DNA of 64,000 nucleotides, taken from NCBI GenBank assembly GCA_030019335.1, contig JASEET010000001.1:124001-188000 (forward strand), in the 5' to 3' direction. The translations under genes and the position numbers were made by a program. Below the pieces are notes generated by a model. That model was not told where the DNA came from, did not search any database, and saw only the letters and a list, made by a program, of their open reading frames with translations. Shown piece after piece: positions 4,238 through 11,705 of the stretch (positions within the stretch are counted from its first letter, which is position 1; each line of letters starts with the position of its first letter). Origin of the DNA: Candidatus Bathyarchaeia archaeon (GTDB lineage Archaea; Thermoproteota; Bathyarchaeia; Bathyarchaeales; Bathycorpusculaceae).

Positions 4238-5035
4238 ATGGAGTGTCAAACTCTTCCTAAAAAGGTTTTCACGCTGGACGAGGTTAGACCTGGTGAGAAG
4301 TCACATCAAATCTGCATTGTTTTAAAGGACGTTCCCGGAGCCTTGGCTGAAGCGGCGAAGGTTTTAGCTGACGCCAATGTGAACATCAAAACTGGCTCAA
4401 CATTCTACGTGGCGGAGTATCCAAACGCTGGCATATGGTCATCCTTCATAAATGTTTCAAAAGCCACTAAGAATGGTAAAGAAATTGAGGAGGAATTACG
4501 AAAGACGGGAATGGTTCTTGACGTGTTTATTAAAGAGCCGAAGCCGACGCCTTTCGAAAGCGTACACTTTCCAACCTTGCACGGAACCACAAGGGCTGTG
4601 GTAATCCCTATAGGAATGTTTTGGGCTTTGTGGGACGGTTTTGAAAGAATTTTGCAGCATTCAGGGCTTGCGGCAGTTCTTTACTCCGCCGGTAAAGAAG
4701 TGGGTGAACACGTGGCTACACGCCTAAAGGAGATGTTCAGTATTGAAGGAAAAGATCTGGTTCAAGCATTGGCGCAGGCAGTTCAAGCAACCGGATGGGG
4801 AGCAACCGAGGCTCGCCTCATCAATTTCAAACATCCCTCAGCAACAATAATAGTTATGGATTGTTTTGAGGCTGCCGCATGGCGTAAAAAACCTTACGCT
4901 GTTTGCCATTGGACAAGGGGATACTTAGCTGGATACATGAGCACAGTGTTCGGGAAGCCCGTGGAAGCGGTTGAGGTTAAGTGCATGGCAAAAGGCGATG
5001 AATACTGCGAATTCAGGGTTAAGGAACGCATTTGA
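4238..5035 (+). CDS. ACT domain-V4R domain sensor protein
   Basis: 265 aa. Residues about 25-95 form an ACT-type fold (ICIVLKDVPGALAEAAKVL, the classic ligand-binding start). Residues about 115-263 form a V4R (4-vinyl reductase) domain ending in CMAKGDEYCEFRV, the conserved Cys-rich tail of that family. ACT domains bind amino acids or similar small molecules; V4R domains bind hydrophobic ligands, tetrapyrroles or corrinoids. No DNA-binding segment is visible, so it probably acts through a partner. It is convergent with the TackOD1-like gene, whose operon holds a second, stand-alone V4R protein. Confidence 0.8.
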   Translation: MECQTLPKKVFTLDEVRPGEKSHQICIVLKDVPGALAEAAKVLADANVNIKTGSTFYVAEYPNAGIWSSFINVSKATKNGKEIEEELRKTGMVLDVFIKEPKPTPFESVHFPTLHGTTRAVVIPIGMFWALWDGFERILQHSGLAAVLYSAGKEVGEHVATRLKEMFSIEGKDLVQALAQAVQATGWGATEARLINFKHPSATIIVMDCFEAAAWRKKPYAVCHWTRGYLAGYMSTVFGKPVEAVEVKCMAKGDEYCEFRVKERI

Positions 5036-5040
5036 TACTT

Positions 5041-6015
5041 TCAAGAAGGTAAGGACGCTTCGAACTTTTTCAATGCTTTGTCTGGCTTTTCAGCTTCAAT
5101 CACGTGAATTTTGTATAGGCTTGCGAGTTTTCTCCCGCTTTTGCTGATCTTTGGAATGGCTATTAAAAATGCCTTGTCTACTGCGGAGTCAAAGGTCTTT
5201 GCAAACATTTCAATTATAAACTGATCTGGAATGGGCTCTCTGGTTGTGGAAACTGAGACGTTGATAACGATTATGTTTCTTACTGTCCCTTTGCCACGCG
5301 CAACAATATCGAACATGTGTTTAACACCGGATTTTCCACCGAGAAGCCCTGGGCTCTCCACCTTGAAGCCTCTTTCCTCCATAAAGCTTCCGATAGGCGC
5401 AAGCACAGTCCAATCTAACGCTACTTGTTTTATTGCTTCCTCGTTTAGGCTGTATGCATAAGCTTCTTTGAAGACAGCTTGTTCAAAAGGGAAGACGTGG
5501 CGGCATTCACGGCAGAAATGATGCGGAACAGGTATGTCAAAGCTTTTCCCGCAGTTGTTGCAGGTGCACCAGACCCCAGCCTTTCTATAGTCAACACCCA
5601 TTTTGGTTAATTCTTCATGACATTTTGGGCAAACAAGCTTTTTCTCAACACAAAACTTCTCTTCAACATCCATGTATCCGCATTTAACATGCTCAATCAA
5701 AGAGCTCTTTCTAATGTTAAACGATTTGCAGTAAGGACAACAATAACGTATAGAAACATTCGCCGAACCGCAATTAGCACAGTAAAGAACGCTATCATAA
5801 AGTTCTCTGTTCAAGATTCCAGCGTCATAAAGCCTGGCCAAAAATTCCTCCTCACCTGGATGAGGTTCACCTATAATTTCCTCTACATCTGGATATCTAA
5901 GCCCATGTTTTAGGTCAAAAACTGGACGTATTACGTGTAAATCCCCACTCATAAACCTACTAACCAAAGCTTGAAATCGAGTATCTCTTGATTCCGCTCT
6001 AACTCCCCCCCCCAA
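5041..6015 (-). CDS. TackOD1-like zinc-binding output-domain protein
   Basis: 324 aa. The first half carries many paired cysteines (CANCG, CCPYC, CPKC, CNNCG, FCREC), several zinc-ribbon knuckles between residues about 78 and 172. The second half is an alpha/beta domain (about 200-324). The layout resembles TackOD1 proteins, archaeal output domains linked to sensory modules, but I assign this from pattern memory only. The TTG start at 6015 sits directly on a run of nine G's and lies 11 bases after the V4R gene, which suggests co-transcription. A later ATG at 5952 is an alternative start. The homopolymer at the start could hide a frameshift. Confidence 0.6.
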   Translation of the reverse strand: MGGGVRAESRDTRFQALVSRFMSGDLHVIRPVFDLKHGLRYPDVEEIIGEPHPGEEEFLARLYDAGILNRELYDSVLYCANCGSANVSIRYCCPYCKSFNIRKSSLIEHVKCGYMDVEEKFCVEKKLVCPKCHEELTKMGVDYRKAGVWCTCNNCGKSFDIPVPHHFCRECRHVFPFEQAVFKEAYAYSLNEEAIKQVALDWTVLAPIGSFMEERGFKVESPGLLGGKSGVKHMFDIVARGKGTVRNIIVINVSVSTTREPIPDQFIIEMFAKTFDSAVDKAFLIAIPKISKSGRKLASLYKIHVIEAEKPDKALKKFEASLPS

Positions 6016-6026
6016 AAAAATCTCTC

Positions 6027-6485
6027 CTAACCGGGGTGAAACTCGAATTCACAATGTTTATCTCCTTTTCCAACGCATTTCTTTTCGGCCACTGCAATGT
6101 TTTTTCCGAATAAACCTGAGAGGAAGCCAGCCGCGAAGTTAGCCAAGAAATAGCAACATGTCCGACCCATAGACTTTCGCTTTCTCGTCTCCAGAGAGTT
6201 TTTGACCAGAATTTTTCCCTTTCCATTCCTGAAGTCTACTTCTGAGAATGAAAACTCTCCCCAGTTCCTTTCACTCATCGACTCAGAAAACTTTGATAAA
6301 GCTTTCTCCAAGCCCTCAGCTTTACCAGTGATTCCTTTGCAAGTTTTTCGTCCACAAGCCTTCGCCATCGAGGCAATTATGACAACAGCTCCAGACGCAA
6401 AGGTTTCCTCAAGAGCCTTTTCCATTTCATGAAACGTTTCGAATTCCATGAAAAAACCGCCGTTTTCTTCAAGAATCTCCTTCAT
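6027..6485 (-). CDS. Stand-alone V4R domain protein
   Basis: 152 aa, one V4R domain. The tail CVGKGDKHCEFEFHPG matches the C terminus of the ACT-V4R protein at 4238-5035, and the middle holds a hydrophobic helix (FLANFAAGFLSGLFG). V4R domains sense small hydrophobic molecules or tetrapyrroles in archaeal and bacterial regulators. The TackOD1-like gene follows within 11 bases, so this may be its sensor subunit. Start at MKEILEENGG; an inner Met at residue 13 is possible. Confidence 0.78.
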   Translation of the reverse strand: MKEILEENGGFFMEFETFHEMEKALEETFASGAVVIIASMAKACGRKTCKGITGKAEGLEKALSKFSESMSERNWGEFSFSEVDFRNGKGKILVKNSLETRKRKSMGRTCCYFLANFAAGFLSGLFGKNIAVAEKKCVGKGDKHCEFEFHPG

Positions 6486-6506: not shown

Positions 6507-6809
6507 CTAACTTGGTTTTGCCCAGCTTTTATATTCATGATACATCCCTATCAGAATTAGTAACCCTCCAATCATCATTATCAAGCCTCCAACAGCGCGC
6601 GTTACAGCAACTTCGAGTTCTAAAAGATAGTAGAGCGAAAAGATGGAAGAACTTATCGCAAGGGCTAAAACGCCCGAAGAAATATACATCCAAGGCTTCC
6701 CCATTCTGCCCCCTCTAAATACTGACAACAACCTAACCGCAAAATACACCAATCCAACGTTAATCAGCAAAGAAACAATATTGATGACAACATGATAAAG
6801 TTCCATCAA
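6507..6809 (-). CDS. Small membrane protein, three helices
   Basis: 100 aa with three predicted transmembrane helices (about 8-26, 42-62, 72-92) and short polar links. It is not a family I recognise. It lies in the same minus-strand series as the V4R/TackOD1-like pair downstream and the surface-protein genes upstream, 21 bases before the V4R gene, so co-transcription is likely. It could be a membrane anchor or signal relay for that system. Confidence 0.6.
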   Translation of the reverse strand: MMELYHVVINIVSLLINVGLVYFAVRLLSVFRGGRMGKPWMYISSGVLALAISSSIFSLYYLLELEVAVTRAVGGLIMMIGGLLILIGMYHEYKSWAKPS

Positions 6810-6908
6810 TCAACCCTCCATTCGATTCTAAATTTTCATTAATCCACTTTTAACACTTTCCATACAATTGCTATAGAGAATAGCTTCTAAACGATTTTCT
6901 TAACCCAA

Positions 6909-7193
6909 TCACTCTCTTTTTCTTTTACCAGCGTATTCTTCAAGGATTTCGCTAATTGATTTAGAGGCTGTTCTTCCCTTTCTCGGTACCAATCCCAAAT
7001 AGGTTGATGGTGTTTTAGGCGGCGTGTACGGAAAAACAAGAAGCCAAGCCGGCTCTCCAACCACAACGATTACCGTAAGTAGACCGCCTATCAACAAGTT
7101 AACACCTAAAATTATCAGCAAAAAAGCTAAAATCTCATTATGAGCATTCTCATCCGCTTTTCTATGCAGCCACTCCACGAAAGACAACACCAC
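6909..7193 (-). CDS. Small membrane protein, shortened paralogue of 10441-10830
   Basis: 94 aa from a GTG start. The first 67 residues (WLHRKADENAHNEIL..., one strong membrane helix, then a GEPAWLLVFPY segment) align closely with the protein at 10441-10830. After YLGLV the sequence jumps directly to the charged C-terminal tail ISEILEEYAGK. About 35 residues holding the paralogue's second membrane helix are missing, in frame. Function unknown. The duplicates bracket the secreted-protein genes. Confidence 0.65.
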   Translation of the reverse strand: MVLSFVEWLHRKADENAHNEILAFLLIILGVNLLIGGLLTVIVVVGEPAWLLVFPYTPPKTPSTYLGLVPRKGRTASKSISEILEEYAGKRKRE

Positions 7194-7443
7194 TCACATG
7201 CCTAACCAAGACCCTTTACATTTCACTTTTCCAAACACAAAGCTAAAGTTTGTGGCTACAAAATAAAAATTACAAATCAACACCAGAAATTCATCAACGC
7301 TTTCGCCAAACACTTTATTCCGATGCTTCTCGCCATGATTGCTCTCTCCGAGTTCTGACATAAGGCATTAGGGCGCAGAACATAAGTATTACAAGCAACA
7401 ACCGAACCTTAGCCTAAACTGCATCATTTTTCCTGCTTGCATT

Positions 7444-9090
7444 TTAGGTTATTTCAAATGTTATGATGAAGAGGTTGTAGGTTGATGTGCCGGGAATGAG
7501 AATTTCCAGGTAGATGTAAACATATGAAGCTCCCGTGTTGGTTGTTGAAACTCTCATTGCGATGTAGACTGTGCTTAAGCCTGTGAGGTTATACCAGTTT
7601 CCGAACTGTTGGCTGTACGTTCCGTTGTAAATGTAGATTTGGCGAGATACTCCGCCACCATTATGGAAAAAGATGGTGCAATTGAATAAGCGTCCCATAT
7701 TCGTTTGGTCATAGGCTCTAAATCTAATTTTCCAAGTGTCCGAAACTTGGTTGGCAACTTCTAAAACATAATCGAACGTGTTTGATATGAATCGGATGGA
7801 TTTGCTTTCCGTTATTTCAGAGGTAACATCAATAATTGTTCCATCTCCTTTACCAATCCCACTGGTGGGGGAGAAATCAGCTAAATTCGTGAAATTAACC
7901 CAGTTAGACTGAATTGTTCCATTCCTGAAAAGGACAAGTTGAAAGTTAGCTATATCCGACGAGTCACCATAACGTGTTGTTCTCCAATAAAAGACAGCCC
8001 TATCAGGATTTGTCTTATTTTCCGCGTAAATACCATCGTATGAATTAACATCAGTTCTTAAGTCGTCCCAGAAAGGAGCAATCATCTTGCGAGTTCCCAT
8101 AGCGGATGGCGAGTTAGCATAGCCATTATAGGCTGTGTCAAAGGTTGCAAATCCGTTCGAGCAGAGGTAGATACTGGTTTTGTTTTCTCCATAATATGAG
8201 AAAATCCAAGGCAGAGTGTACCAAACTCCTACATCATCTCCCACAGAACCCGTTAATGGGGTGGTAACAGTCAGCGTTTCATTAACATAACAGACGCCAT
8301 GCTTAGCATATCCTACATCCGACATTTCGGTTGTTGGTATGAACCGTATGGATTTATTAGCTGCCAATTCGGAAGTAACATCTAAATACCTACCTTCTCC
8401 ATTGCCAAGCCCGCATGTCGGTGAAAAATTAGCAAGATTCACGAAGTCGTTCCAATTAAACTGGATTGTCCCGTTTCGAAACAAAATCATTTGGAATCGT
8501 GCAACATCTGAAGAAGCCCCGTATCGTGTTGTGTTCCAGCTGATAACCACCCGATCCGGACCCGTTTTGTTTTCTGCATAAATTCCGTCATACGAGTTAA
8601 CATCGGTGCGTAGATCATCCCAGAATGGAGCTGTCTTCTTTCGTTCCCCCAACTCTTCAACAGAATTGCTGTAATCATTTGTGGCGGTATCGAAAACTCC
8701 GAAACCATTGGAGCAAAGGTAAATCTGTGTTTTATTAACGCCGTAAAAGGGGAAAATCCACGGCAAATTATACCACACACCTACATCGTCACCCTGTGAA
8801 CCGGACAATAGCGTTGCAGCAGTTTCAAACACATAACCTACGATTTCCTTCTCATAGCTATCTACTGATTCAACCGCAGAGGCGATAACACTCACTTTAG
8901 CACTTGTATTATTCTCGTATATCGTGCTTGTGCCAACTGTTCCTTGCTGCAGAATTACCCCTGGTGTTTCAGCTGAAATGGAAAGCGCTTGACCATAATA
9001 CAGATTGTAAACATTACCATAAACAGAGGCTGATAGACTAACGAGTAAGACTGTGCTTAGAAGTACAATTTTGAAACAGCCTACGTTCAT
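7444..9090 (-). CDS. Large secreted surface protein with two NIDO-like repeats
   Basis: 548 aa from MNVGCFKIVLL (a frame from 9105 adds five residues). It has an N-terminal signal peptide ending near SASVYGNV. Two near-identical modules (about residues 90-240 and 275-425) each hold GDDVGVWY.LPWIF, YLCSNGF..FDTA, APFWDDLRTDVNSYDGIYAE and FRNGTIQ. APFW-D is typical of NIDO (nidogen-like) extracellular beta domains. The last 110 residues form a separate beta-rich domain. Many N-x-S/T sites suggest N-glycosylation. The mature N terminus resembles that of the next gene upstream (VYNLYYGQ against VYNLMYMQ), pointing to a shared export or assembly route. Confidence 0.78.
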   Translation of the reverse strand: MNVGCFKIVLLSTVLLVSLSASVYGNVYNLYYGQALSISAETPGVILQQGTVGTSTIYENNTSAKVSVIASAVESVDSYEKEIVGYVFETAATLLSGSQGDDVGVWYNLPWIFPFYGVNKTQIYLCSNGFGVFDTATNDYSNSVEELGERKKTAPFWDDLRTDVNSYDGIYAENKTGPDRVVISWNTTRYGASSDVARFQMILFRNGTIQFNWNDFVNLANFSPTCGLGNGEGRYLDVTSELAANKSIRFIPTTEMSDVGYAKHGVCYVNETLTVTTPLTGSVGDDVGVWYTLPWIFSYYGENKTSIYLCSNGFATFDTAYNGYANSPSAMGTRKMIAPFWDDLRTDVNSYDGIYAENKTNPDRAVFYWRTTRYGDSSDIANFQLVLFRNGTIQSNWVNFTNLADFSPTSGIGKGDGTIIDVTSEITESKSIRFISNTFDYVLEVANQVSDTWKIRFRAYDQTNMGRLFNCTIFFHNGGGVSRQIYIYNGTYSQQFGNWYNLTGLSTVYIAMRVSTTNTGASYVYIYLEILIPGTSTYNLFIITFEIT

Positions 9091-9140
9091 CACGGTTTCC
9101 TCCAATTATAATCAGAGAGGAAAAAGGGGGGATGGCTGGT

Positions 9141-9701
9141 TTACTCGCCTGCTACGATAAGCTGCAGCGTCACTGAGACAGTGTCTGTTGATAATGCTCC
9201 CGCTGCCCACTTGATTTCCCACTGTACACGCCACGTGGAGCTTGCTGGGATGCTAAGTGAACCAGTGGATGATCCGGCTGTGCCAACAATTATTGTGGAG
9301 CCTTGTTGAGTTCCGTCACTGAAGATTTTCACATAGATGTAGTCTATGTTAGCGGTAGAGCCGCTCCAAGAATCATACTTGAGTTCAATAGTTCGAGCCG
9401 AGGTGTCCAAGTTTTGTATTCCAACGGCATCTTCATAGACTCTTGTGGCGTTTGGCCAGCCTGCCATGCTGTTAAATCTCACATACGTGCCGTTAGTGCC
9501 GATGGAGGCGCCTGCTGCCGTGCTGTCAGCTCCGGTCACAAACTGAACATCGGCGGCTTCAGTTGCTATTGGATACGACTGCATATACATGAGGTTGTAG
9601 ACGCTGGCGCTCGCAGTAACGATGAGTAGCGATGTCAGAAAAAGGAAAAACGTCCTTAGCAGTTTTCTGTACCGTTTCTGATGAGCTTTTCCAATGTTCA
9701 T
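9141..9701 (-). CDS. Small secreted beta-sandwich protein, possible fibre subunit
   Basis: 186 aa. A basic N terminus and one hydrophobic helix end in TASASVYNLMYMQ, followed by a Ser/Thr/Gly-rich beta domain with a final W-R-V-Q-W-E-I-K-W strand region. Size and layout recall TasA/camelysin-like and archaeal bundling-pilus subunits, but homology is not proved. The start codon abuts the stop of the upstream membrane protein, and its Shine-Dalgarno GGAGGTG lies inside that gene's GGGK tail, so the two are translationally coupled. It shares its mature N-terminal motif with the large protein downstream. Confidence 0.68.
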   Translation of the reverse strand: MNIGKAHQKRYRKLLRTFFLFLTSLLIVTASASVYNLMYMQSYPIATEAADVQFVTGADSTAAGASIGTNGTYVRFNSMAGWPNATRVYEDAVGIQNLDTSARTIELKYDSWSGSTANIDYIYVKIFSDGTQQGSTIIVGTAGSSTGSLSIPASSTWRVQWEIKWAAGALSTDTVSVTLQLIVAGE

Positions 9702-10310
9702 TCATTTTCCACCTCCTTTTTTATTTTCTTTCGGGTCATCCGTTGGGTTTGTGGCATAGTTAAGCAAGCTGGGAACGAACCAACGTTTCCGGTGCGCCCC
9801 AAACATTTTTTTCAACATCCCCGGCTCGACGGATACAACAATGCTAAACCCAAGGATGACCGCATAGGTGATGAGAACTATGTAGATGCTTTCGAGTGGG
9901 ACTATGGGAAGAGGCGGTATCCAAACCGCCAAGCCGTTAACATATGCGGAAACAGAAAAGAAGGATATGAAACCTGTTGGAATGGTAATAGAGCCCAAAA
10001 ATGCCAAAGCAACGCCTAAACGATTTCTATTTATAGCGATGTGAAGGTTAACTGCGACTATGGCGATTAGAGCCGCAGCCAAGTAAAGTATGCTACTATA
10101 AAAACGTGCCTCAACAAAAAACAGAAAGGCATAGTTAACCCAAATTTGACCAAAACCAGCAAGAGCTGCAATCTGGAAAAAGTATGGAACAGCTCGTGGA
10201 AATGGTCCATCAAAAAGAGAAGTTAACAAGCTCAAAGCTACAAATACGTTAACACCCACTAACACGAACAACTCTGGGGGGAATAGAGGAGACGGCATTT
10301 TCTGAAACAT
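9702..10310 (-). CDS. Polytopic membrane protein coupled to secreted subunit
   Basis: 202 aa with about five membrane helices between residues 13 and 158 and a basic, Gly-rich C-terminal tail (ENKKGGGK). It is not a recognised transporter and no protease motif is evident. Its stop directly abuts the start of the secreted-protein gene at 9701. That tight coupling suggests it exports, anchors or assembles that protein. Confidence 0.65.
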   Translation of the reverse strand: MFQKMPSPLFPPELFVLVGVNVFVALSLLTSLFDGPFPRAVPYFFQIAALAGFGQIWVNYAFLFFVEARFYSSILYLAAALIAIVAVNLHIAINRNRLGVALAFLGSITIPTGFISFFSVSAYVNGLAVWIPPLPIVPLESIYIVLITYAVILGFSIVVSVEPGMLKKMFGAHRKRWFVPSLLNYATNPTDDPKENKKGGGK

Positions 10311-10440
10311 CCGCTTATATCAAGTTTAGACTCAGAATAACTTCTTGTATTGAAAGGCTTTATGAATATACAATTCAGATTATGGATACACGTTCCAAAA
10401 CTGGCACAACCTTAACCACGATTGTCTGAGGCACTCTGGC

Positions 10441-10830
10441 CTAACCTTCCTGACGCCTCTTCTTTTTGCACATATATTCCTGCATTATTTCGTTAACTGA
10501 TTTTAGGCTGCTTACCCTTTTGTGTATACTGGATTTTTCCAACTCCTTTATGCACCATGACCTTTTTCTGTCGTAATGTATAACGAGCAGGAATCCCGCG
10601 GATAGAAGGGCGAAGCCTGCAATCGCCAGAATCAGTCCCAGATATGCTGATGAAGTTTGCGACGGCTTATACGGAAAAATAAGAAGCCAGCTTGGCTCTC
10701 CAGCAACAATAACTATGACGAGCAAGCCGCCCATCAGCAAGTTTACACCCAGAATCATTAACAAGAATGATAAAATCTCGTTATGCGCATGCTCATCCGC
10801 TTTCCTATGCAGCCAATCCCTGAAAGACAC
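10441..10830 (-). CDS. Two-helix membrane protein, full-length paralogue of 6909-7193
   Basis: 129 aa if started at GTG 10830, which has an AAGGTG Shine-Dalgarno 8 bases upstream and matches the paralogue's N terminus; the frame opens at 10851. It has a conserved amphipathic start (SFRDWLHRKADEHAHNEIL), two membrane helices (about 20-45 and 62-85) and a charged tail ending in CKKKRRQEG. Function unknown. It heads the minus-strand surface cluster and is 131 bases upstream of the polytopic protein gene. Confidence 0.65.
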   Translation of the reverse strand: MSFRDWLHRKADEHAHNEILSFLLMILGVNLLMGGLLVIVIVAGEPSWLLIFPYKPSQTSSAYLGLILAIAGFALLSAGFLLVIHYDRKRSWCIKELEKSSIHKRVSSLKSVNEIMQEYMCKKKRRQEG

Positions 10831-10920
10831 AAGCGCGCACCTTCTTCGCAAATATGGCGAATCAAAACGTTAAGGTAAAGATTACGACTTTTAAGTAAAG
10901 ACCCGAAATAAGGATGCACA

Positions 10921-11134: not shown

Positions 11135-11581
11135 CTACCTTTCTAAAAATTCGTCGTTCCAGCGTTTACATATTATCCACATGAGTCTTGGCAGGTTTAA
11201 CCCGTCAGGCGGTCTTTTTGGAATAGGCTGCCGCACAAGAACAGACTTCTCTCGGATAACAAACGATTTCACATCAAAATCTTGCTTCTCGCCAAACCTC
11301 TGCTCAATCGTTATCAGTCCCAACGTTAACAGCGGCTTGCGAATCTGACGGTAAAAACTTGTCCGCCTATACCTGAAGCCTTTCTCAATTCTTCCAGCCT
11401 CCAAATCCCATGCAAACTGACTTACTTCACTACGGCTACACACGCCTCTTTCTTTAAGCCAGTCAAGAAACAGCCTGCACGCCCTCTGCTGTTTACGGCG
11501 GGTGAAGAGAAGCTTGCAAATGTCCTCTTCACTTGGGATAAGGCTCATTTTCGTTTTCCAAGTCAAAACCCTTAGCGTCAT
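11135..11581 (-). CDS. Hypothetical protein, possible helix-turn-helix
   Basis: About 148 aa from MTLRVLTWKTK (a longer frame opens at 11644). The middle (ACRLFLDWLKERGVCSRSEV, then a Trp-containing helix and RRTSFYRQIRKPLLTLGLI) looks like a winged helix with a C-terminal basic extension. I cannot name a family. It lies alone inside the island and may belong to the element's own replication or regulation genes. Confidence 0.45.
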   Translation of the reverse strand: MTLRVLTWKTKMSLIPSEEDICKLLFTRRKQQRACRLFLDWLKERGVCSRSEVSQFAWDLEAGRIEKGFRYRRTSFYRQIRKPLLTLGLITIEQRFGEKQDFDVKSFVIREKSVLVRQPIPKRPPDGLNLPRLMWIICKRWNDEFLER

Positions 11582-11705
11582 GTTAAATTCTCCATTCACA
11601 GCCAAAAATGGCATAATAGCGATAATGTTGCAACTTAACAACACTACAACAATTAAACATGTGACACCTACCTAAATTTCCAAAAAAGCCATTCATTTTG
11701 GCTTT

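Follow-up and report, generated by a model that had tools for sequence, protein, structure and literature searches.

The minus-strand genes between positions 10851 and 6507 of the window (the whole 64,000-nucleotide stretch that was analysed, from a genome of 1.64 Mb in 73 contigs) raise the question of what two secreted proteins encoded side by side build at the cell surface, and which of the surrounding genes take part. A first-pass annotation had read the locus as a possible new surface-fibre or sheath system, with small membrane proteins at both ends, a polytopic protein and two secreted proteins. The named open reading frames (ORFs) are all present on the minus strand, along which the gene order is tmA, poly, sec, nido, tmB and a 100-residue ORF:

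10441-10851, minus strand: tmA, small membrane protein with two transmembrane segments (from the ORF list)
9702-10310, minus strand: poly, polytopic membrane protein of 202 residues, candidate assembly or anchor protein
9709-9716, minus strand: ribosome-binding-like GGAGGTGG before sec, within the 3′ end of poly (read from the sequence)
9141-9701, minus strand: sec, predicted major pilin of 186 residues with an N-terminal signal peptide
9606-9701, minus strand: signal peptide of sec, 32 residues, ending in VTASA, with a type I signal peptidase-like site
9564-9605, minus strand: predicted donor strand, mature sec residues 1-14, SVYNLMYMQSYPIA
7444-9105, minus strand: nido, predicted adhesive minor pilin, 553 residues as listed (548 from the ATG at 9090)
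8881-9015, minus strand: N-terminal half of nido's split pilin-like domain, beginning NVYNLYYGQ and conserved in all homologues to NTSAKV
8329-8820, minus strand: insert, NIDO-like repeat 1, 70% identical to repeat 2 and absent from short homologues
7777-8268, minus strand: insert, NIDO-like repeat 2, 70% identical to repeat 1
7447-7776, minus strand: C-terminal half of nido's split pilin-like domain (FDYVLEV...FIITFEIT), where conservation within the family is highest
6909-7193, minus strand: tmB, small membrane protein with two transmembrane segments, truncated (from the ORF list)
6507-6809, minus strand: membrane ORF of 100 residues, the outermost (from the ORF list)

The last base of poly is the base just before the ATG of sec, with GGAGGTGG upstream of that ATG, which bears out the direct coupling of a polytopic protein to a small secreted β protein. 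The likely start of poly itself is Met5, at about 10298, a start conserved among the homologues. Sec and nido are separated by 35 bases, or by 50 if nido starts at its likely ATG, 9090, which has TTGGAGG just upstream. Directly after each predicted signal peptide the two proteins carry the common motif VYNL.Y.Q (SVYNLMYMQ in sec, NVYNLYYGQ in nido), as had been noticed; it occurs in none of 1164 unrelated ORFs of the compared loci. The reported lack of a pilus ATPase and an archaeosortase is correct for the locus, among whose proteins neither is recognised, but two T2SSE-type ATPases are encoded on other contigs of the genome. An archaeal signal peptidase I is encoded on contig 33 of the same genome, and no signal peptidase gene is found in the locus.

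Comparison with other genomes reduces the unit to three minus-strand genes, poly, sec and nido, and this core trio is conserved. Poly is present in 36 of 101 relatives and in 25 of 397 genomes of the phylum, with close relatives on Candidatus Bathyarchaeota contigs. Of the 44 poly loci examined, 35 have a sec homologue immediately downstream; the other nine comprise two at a contig edge, two damaged or masked, two reordered and three, from one family of the class, with other secreted candidates. Nido follows sec in about 13 poly loci. Across 101 genomes poly and nido occur together in 18, nido alone in 6, poly alone in 18 and neither in 59 (Fisher P 1e-5, shared descent being ignored). Two loci (L162 and L163), whose genomes belong to other classes of the phylum and which have sec and nido upstream of poly, matter most, because the same three genes stay together despite the changed order. 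Poly is not universally needed, since nido and a pilin also occur without a recognisable poly in seven genera-level cases (genomes 022, 074, 080, 086, 090 and 092), and six of the genomes that have nido show no recognised poly; in genus g45 (L147 and L148) nido and pilin likewise stand together with no recognised poly.

A second form of the pair, in which a poly of about 235 residues accompanies a pilin (L033, L056, L057, L059, L060, L062 and L063), occupies a single conserved site in the chromosome, close to an MBL-fold nuclease-like gene and an SGFYKL/SPKERL protein; both forms are present in genome G036. In another family of the class (L159, 7473-8774; L160; L161) poly is followed by a two-transmembrane protein of 140 residues and a secreted protein of 220 residues, which the sec profile does not recognise and which is possibly a diverged pilin.

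The flanking genes do not belong to the unit. TmA and tmB are indeed paralogous (69% identical over 68 residues), but the ORF at 6507-6809, at the very end, is no paralogue of theirs. The tmA family has homologues in 32 of 61 relatives, often with several copies in one genome, and neither tmA, tmB and the 100-residue ORF nor the upstream winged-helix-like ORF of 169 residues (11135-11644) is found in any other module locus. Because they are unlinked elsewhere and tmA is multicopy, all four are regarded as neighbours, and the proposal that the small membrane proteins are components is abandoned. TmA and tmB belong to a multicopy Bathyarchaeota family to which no function is assigned. Next to the module, in the window (4238-6485) and at two other loci (L064, 9829-10896; L061, 13510-14280), are TackOD1 zinc-ribbon and V4R or ACT-V4R genes; genes of these types also adjoin a type IV-like adhesin (L145, 3938-6118), and they are possible regulators.

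The signal peptide of sec ends in an AxA-type site; xxSA/ASA before the cleavage site is conserved across 34 homologues, and no prepilin peptidase-type site was found in sec. The AF2 model of the mature protein (pLDDT 93.2, pTM 0.83) has three matches below E 1e-3 in a Foldseek search of the PDB, all of them archaeal fibre or tube subunits: AbpA of the bundling pili (7UEG; E 7e-8, TM 0.68 by query), the Sulfolobus thread (7PNB; E 1.8e-5) and the cannula-type Hyper2 tube (9bab; E 8e-4). The Foldseek probability is 1.00 for the first two, at moderate TM-scores of 0.66-0.68. The type 1 pilus subunits FimG and FimH follow at E of about 1e-2, the type IV pilin fold is not among the results, and many unrelated proteins also match in such β-sandwich searches, at weaker scores. 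Since its best PDB fold matches are archaeal fibre or tube subunits, the modelled sec, a single-copy protein in this genome, very probably serves as the pilin in a donor-strand pilus. The relationship to AbpA and the thread is undetectable in a PDB sequence search, which returned nothing significant, and no Pfam family fits the 33 sec homologues, which align as mature proteins at identities down to 15%. Neither of the outcomes that the first-pass annotation had named as refuting was seen: no enzyme match appeared for the secreted proteins in the Pfam and PDB fold searches, and the core genes do recur together in other genomes. The surface-fibre reading of the first-pass annotation is well supported, as sec folds like two solved archaeal donor-strand pilins.

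The mature N-terminus of sec has the features expected of a donated strand. The monomer model shows no strand within residues 1-19; the N-terminal segment has a pLDDT of 76-84, and the first strand begins at residue 20. Among the 33 homologues this segment shows a hydrophobic alternation, with V/I at position 2, L/M at 6 (33 of 33), M/I/L at 8 (91%), I/V at 12 and V/I at 14, and with a small residue at position 10 (91%); the pattern is echoed in nido. Such an alternation is how a donor strand would present its side chains to an acceptor groove, and the VYNL.Y.Q motif is predicted to lie within this strand. According to PMC9715654, which cites the AbpA work, the N-terminal strand that follows the signal peptidase I site is donated in AbpA pili and Sulfolobus threads. 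Sec resembles these archaeal pilins in its computed fold, an incomplete Ig-like or jelly-roll β sandwich, and, as predicted from the pattern and the monomer model, in having an extended N-terminal strand after a signal peptidase I site.

The nido protein is built on the same domain. Its homologues range from 188 to more than 1000 residues and follow sec in many loci. All of them contain the N-terminal half ending in NTSAKV and the C-terminal half (about 110 residues), which is about 45-60% identical in other genera; in six short forms (188-200 residues) the two halves are joined directly, with no insert. A profile built from these short forms, the full-length alignment being noisy, aligns end to end with the sec profile (hhalign probability 96.1, P 2.9e-9). 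This alignment identifies the short forms as paralogues of the pilin, and in the long forms an insert interrupts that same domain. In the window the insert consists of the two repeats, 70% identical over 164 residues. Their description as NIDO-like repeats stands as to the repetition, but the NIDO assignment reflects a residue pattern and has no Pfam support: no model, the NIDO model included, matched the 553-residue nido at E ≤ 1. At the same place in the domain, relatives carry the lectin-like LamG_3 (L041, L048 and L065; E 2e-25 to 5e-10) or DUF2341 (L065 and L162). A fixed pilin part combined with a variable binding part is the layout of a minor pilin adhesin, and nido is likely to be one, because its core duplicates the pilin domain and is split by a changing insert. 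With a pilin paralogue as the nido core and the motif inside the predicted donor strand, the suggestion that the common motif points to common assembly is strengthened.

A NIDO-like repeat 46% identical to that of the window also occurs in genome G069 (L145, 2536-3903), where a type IV prepilin-like stem bears it together with a DUF2341-like part, and TadC-like genes lie upstream. Two different pilus systems thus carry this binding module.

The reading that we favour, with a probability of about 0.78, is that the three genes make a thin, non-type-IV donor-strand pilus, with nido as its adhesin and poly in the membrane. Sec and nido would cross the membrane by the Sec pathway, and cleavage by the general signal peptidase I would free the N-terminal strand xVYxxLxMx[AGS]. 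As in the AbpA pili and the Sulfolobus threads, the strand from each sec subunit would then fill in the incomplete β sandwich of its successor, so that donor-strand complementation would extend the fibre without an ATPase. The pilin domain of nido may dock into the same fibre via the same strand, while its insert (NIDO-like here, LamG or DUF2341 in relatives) would project to bind surfaces or glycans. By analogy with what is proposed for TapA and Saci_0405, nido probably sits at a fibre end. Poly would stay in the membrane and hold or feed the subunits, as an assembly platform or anchor.

It is unlikely that sec and nido are instead non-polymerising surface proteins, S-layer-associated or glycan-binding, which share a common Ig-like domain and are anchored by poly. 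Such proteins would account for the many N-glycosylation sequons (2 in sec, 16 in nido), which archaeal surface proteins generally carry, and for the ligand-binding domains inserted in the nido family. In the fold search, however, the E-values of the polymerising archaeal subunits are orders of magnitude better than those of all other Ig-like proteins, and the conserved donor-strand pattern lies in the mature N-terminal segment, outside the globular fold. Less probable still is a sheath or wide cannula-like tube of sec around or between cells. The Hyper2 tube is the third PDB match and CanA ranks 12th, but AbpA and the thread, which form thin pili, score better by 1-4 orders of magnitude, and sec has no CanA-like sequence match; the sheath envisaged in the first-pass annotation is unsupported. 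A type IV pilus-related or virus-derived locus is the least probable reading: although the g45 pilins have a class III-like GQTSLE before the hydrophobic core and the L145 protein places a NIDO-like repeat on a type IV prepilin-like stem, sec combines an AxA-type site with a fold unlike that of type IV pilins, no class III prepilin signal, pilus ATPase or platform was found in the locus, a close-relative search of 2.9 million viral contigs gave no relative of sec or poly, and many relatives have the pair between ordinary chromosomal genes. Viral fold matches were weak and generic, and a viral origin was rejected. The g45 pilins (L147, 6289-6846; L148, 8261-8830) combine the GQTSLE stretch with an AxA-type site.

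Poly contains 4 to 6 hydrophobic helices, five of them long in the AF2 model (pLDDT 81). Residues P12, F23, G52 and P111 are invariant in 39 sequences, and E13 and R69 nearly so. It matches no Pfam family, no PDB sequence and no PDB fold (best E 3.0), and the invariant residues include no conserved Ser/Lys/His set; a signal peptidase or known transporter was rejected on these grounds. Because its gene is so tightly coupled to that of the pilin, poly may act in assembly or anchoring and is regarded as a candidate for either role. A bolder idea, which we hold tentatively and would sooner bet against, is that poly could define a new class of inner-membrane platforms that assemble and anchor donor-strand pili in archaea without an outer membrane, as the missing counterpart of the usher, paired with a modular adhesin that accepts arbitrary binding domains in its pilin fold.

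Comparison with known systems shows which parts are new. AbpA of Pyrobaculum calidifontis, a member of the TasA/camelysin superfamily that is reported to assemble by donor strand (as cited in PMC9715654 and PMC10151520), is likewise a secreted single-domain β subunit. Compared by fold and sequence alone, the present locus differs in its linked poly and insert-split paralogue; sec has no sequence-level match to AbpA, and no Peptidase_M73/TasA domain (PF12389) is found in the 33 sec homologues or the genome, the Bacillus subtilis control being positive. With the Sulfolobus acidocaldarius thread (Saci_0406/Saci_0405) sec shares the signal peptidase I site and a tyrosine-rich mature N-terminal strand, and nido, like the proposed cap Saci_0405, is an adjacent pilin paralogue (PMC9715654). 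Saci_0405 is described without a Sec signal, and no adhesin insert is reported for it, whereas nido has a signal peptide and inserts (PMC9715654). Thread subunits (arCOG10215) have a conserved N-terminal Asp that is said to form an isopeptide bond (PMC9715654). The Asp1-YYY motif is not conserved in the 33 sec homologues, where mature residue 1 is Ala in 22 and Asp in one; Tyr3 occurs in 30, but Tyr4 and Tyr5 in only 12 each. Because the PF12389 domain and Asp1-YYY are both lacking, the system is neither TasA/camelysin nor thread.

The TasA/TapA system of Bacillus subtilis likewise combines a major subunit with a rarer, nucleating paralogue-like subunit, which donates its N-terminal strand, in an operon coupled by gene overlap (PMC9674648, PMC10151520). 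That operon has a dedicated signal peptidase, SipW, and no polytopic poly-like gene; the Bathyarchaeota locus has no linked signal peptidase, a difference that also holds in the comparison with AbpA. Chaperone-usher pili (FimA, FimG, FimH) share the donor-strand logic and the two-part adhesin; here there is no outer membrane, and no PapD-like chaperone or outer-membrane usher is found among the locus proteins. In FimH the lectin precedes the pilin domain, whereas in nido the binding insert splits it. The locus represents a variant form of the donor-strand pili already known from archaea, with a dedicated poly partner and an insert-split adhesin as its new parts; the idea of an entirely new type of system is not supported.

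For the archaeal donor-strand fibres, i.e., threads and bundling pili, a chaperone, usher or platform has yet to be assigned (PMC9715654). The locus described here offers a conserved polytopic protein that is predicted to be translationally coupled to such a pilin, and a concrete rule for making an adhesin, by insertion of a binding domain into the pilin fold. A literature search of limited scope found no paper on donor-strand fibres in Bathyarchaeota, and the present system would extend donor-strand pili to this abundant sediment group.
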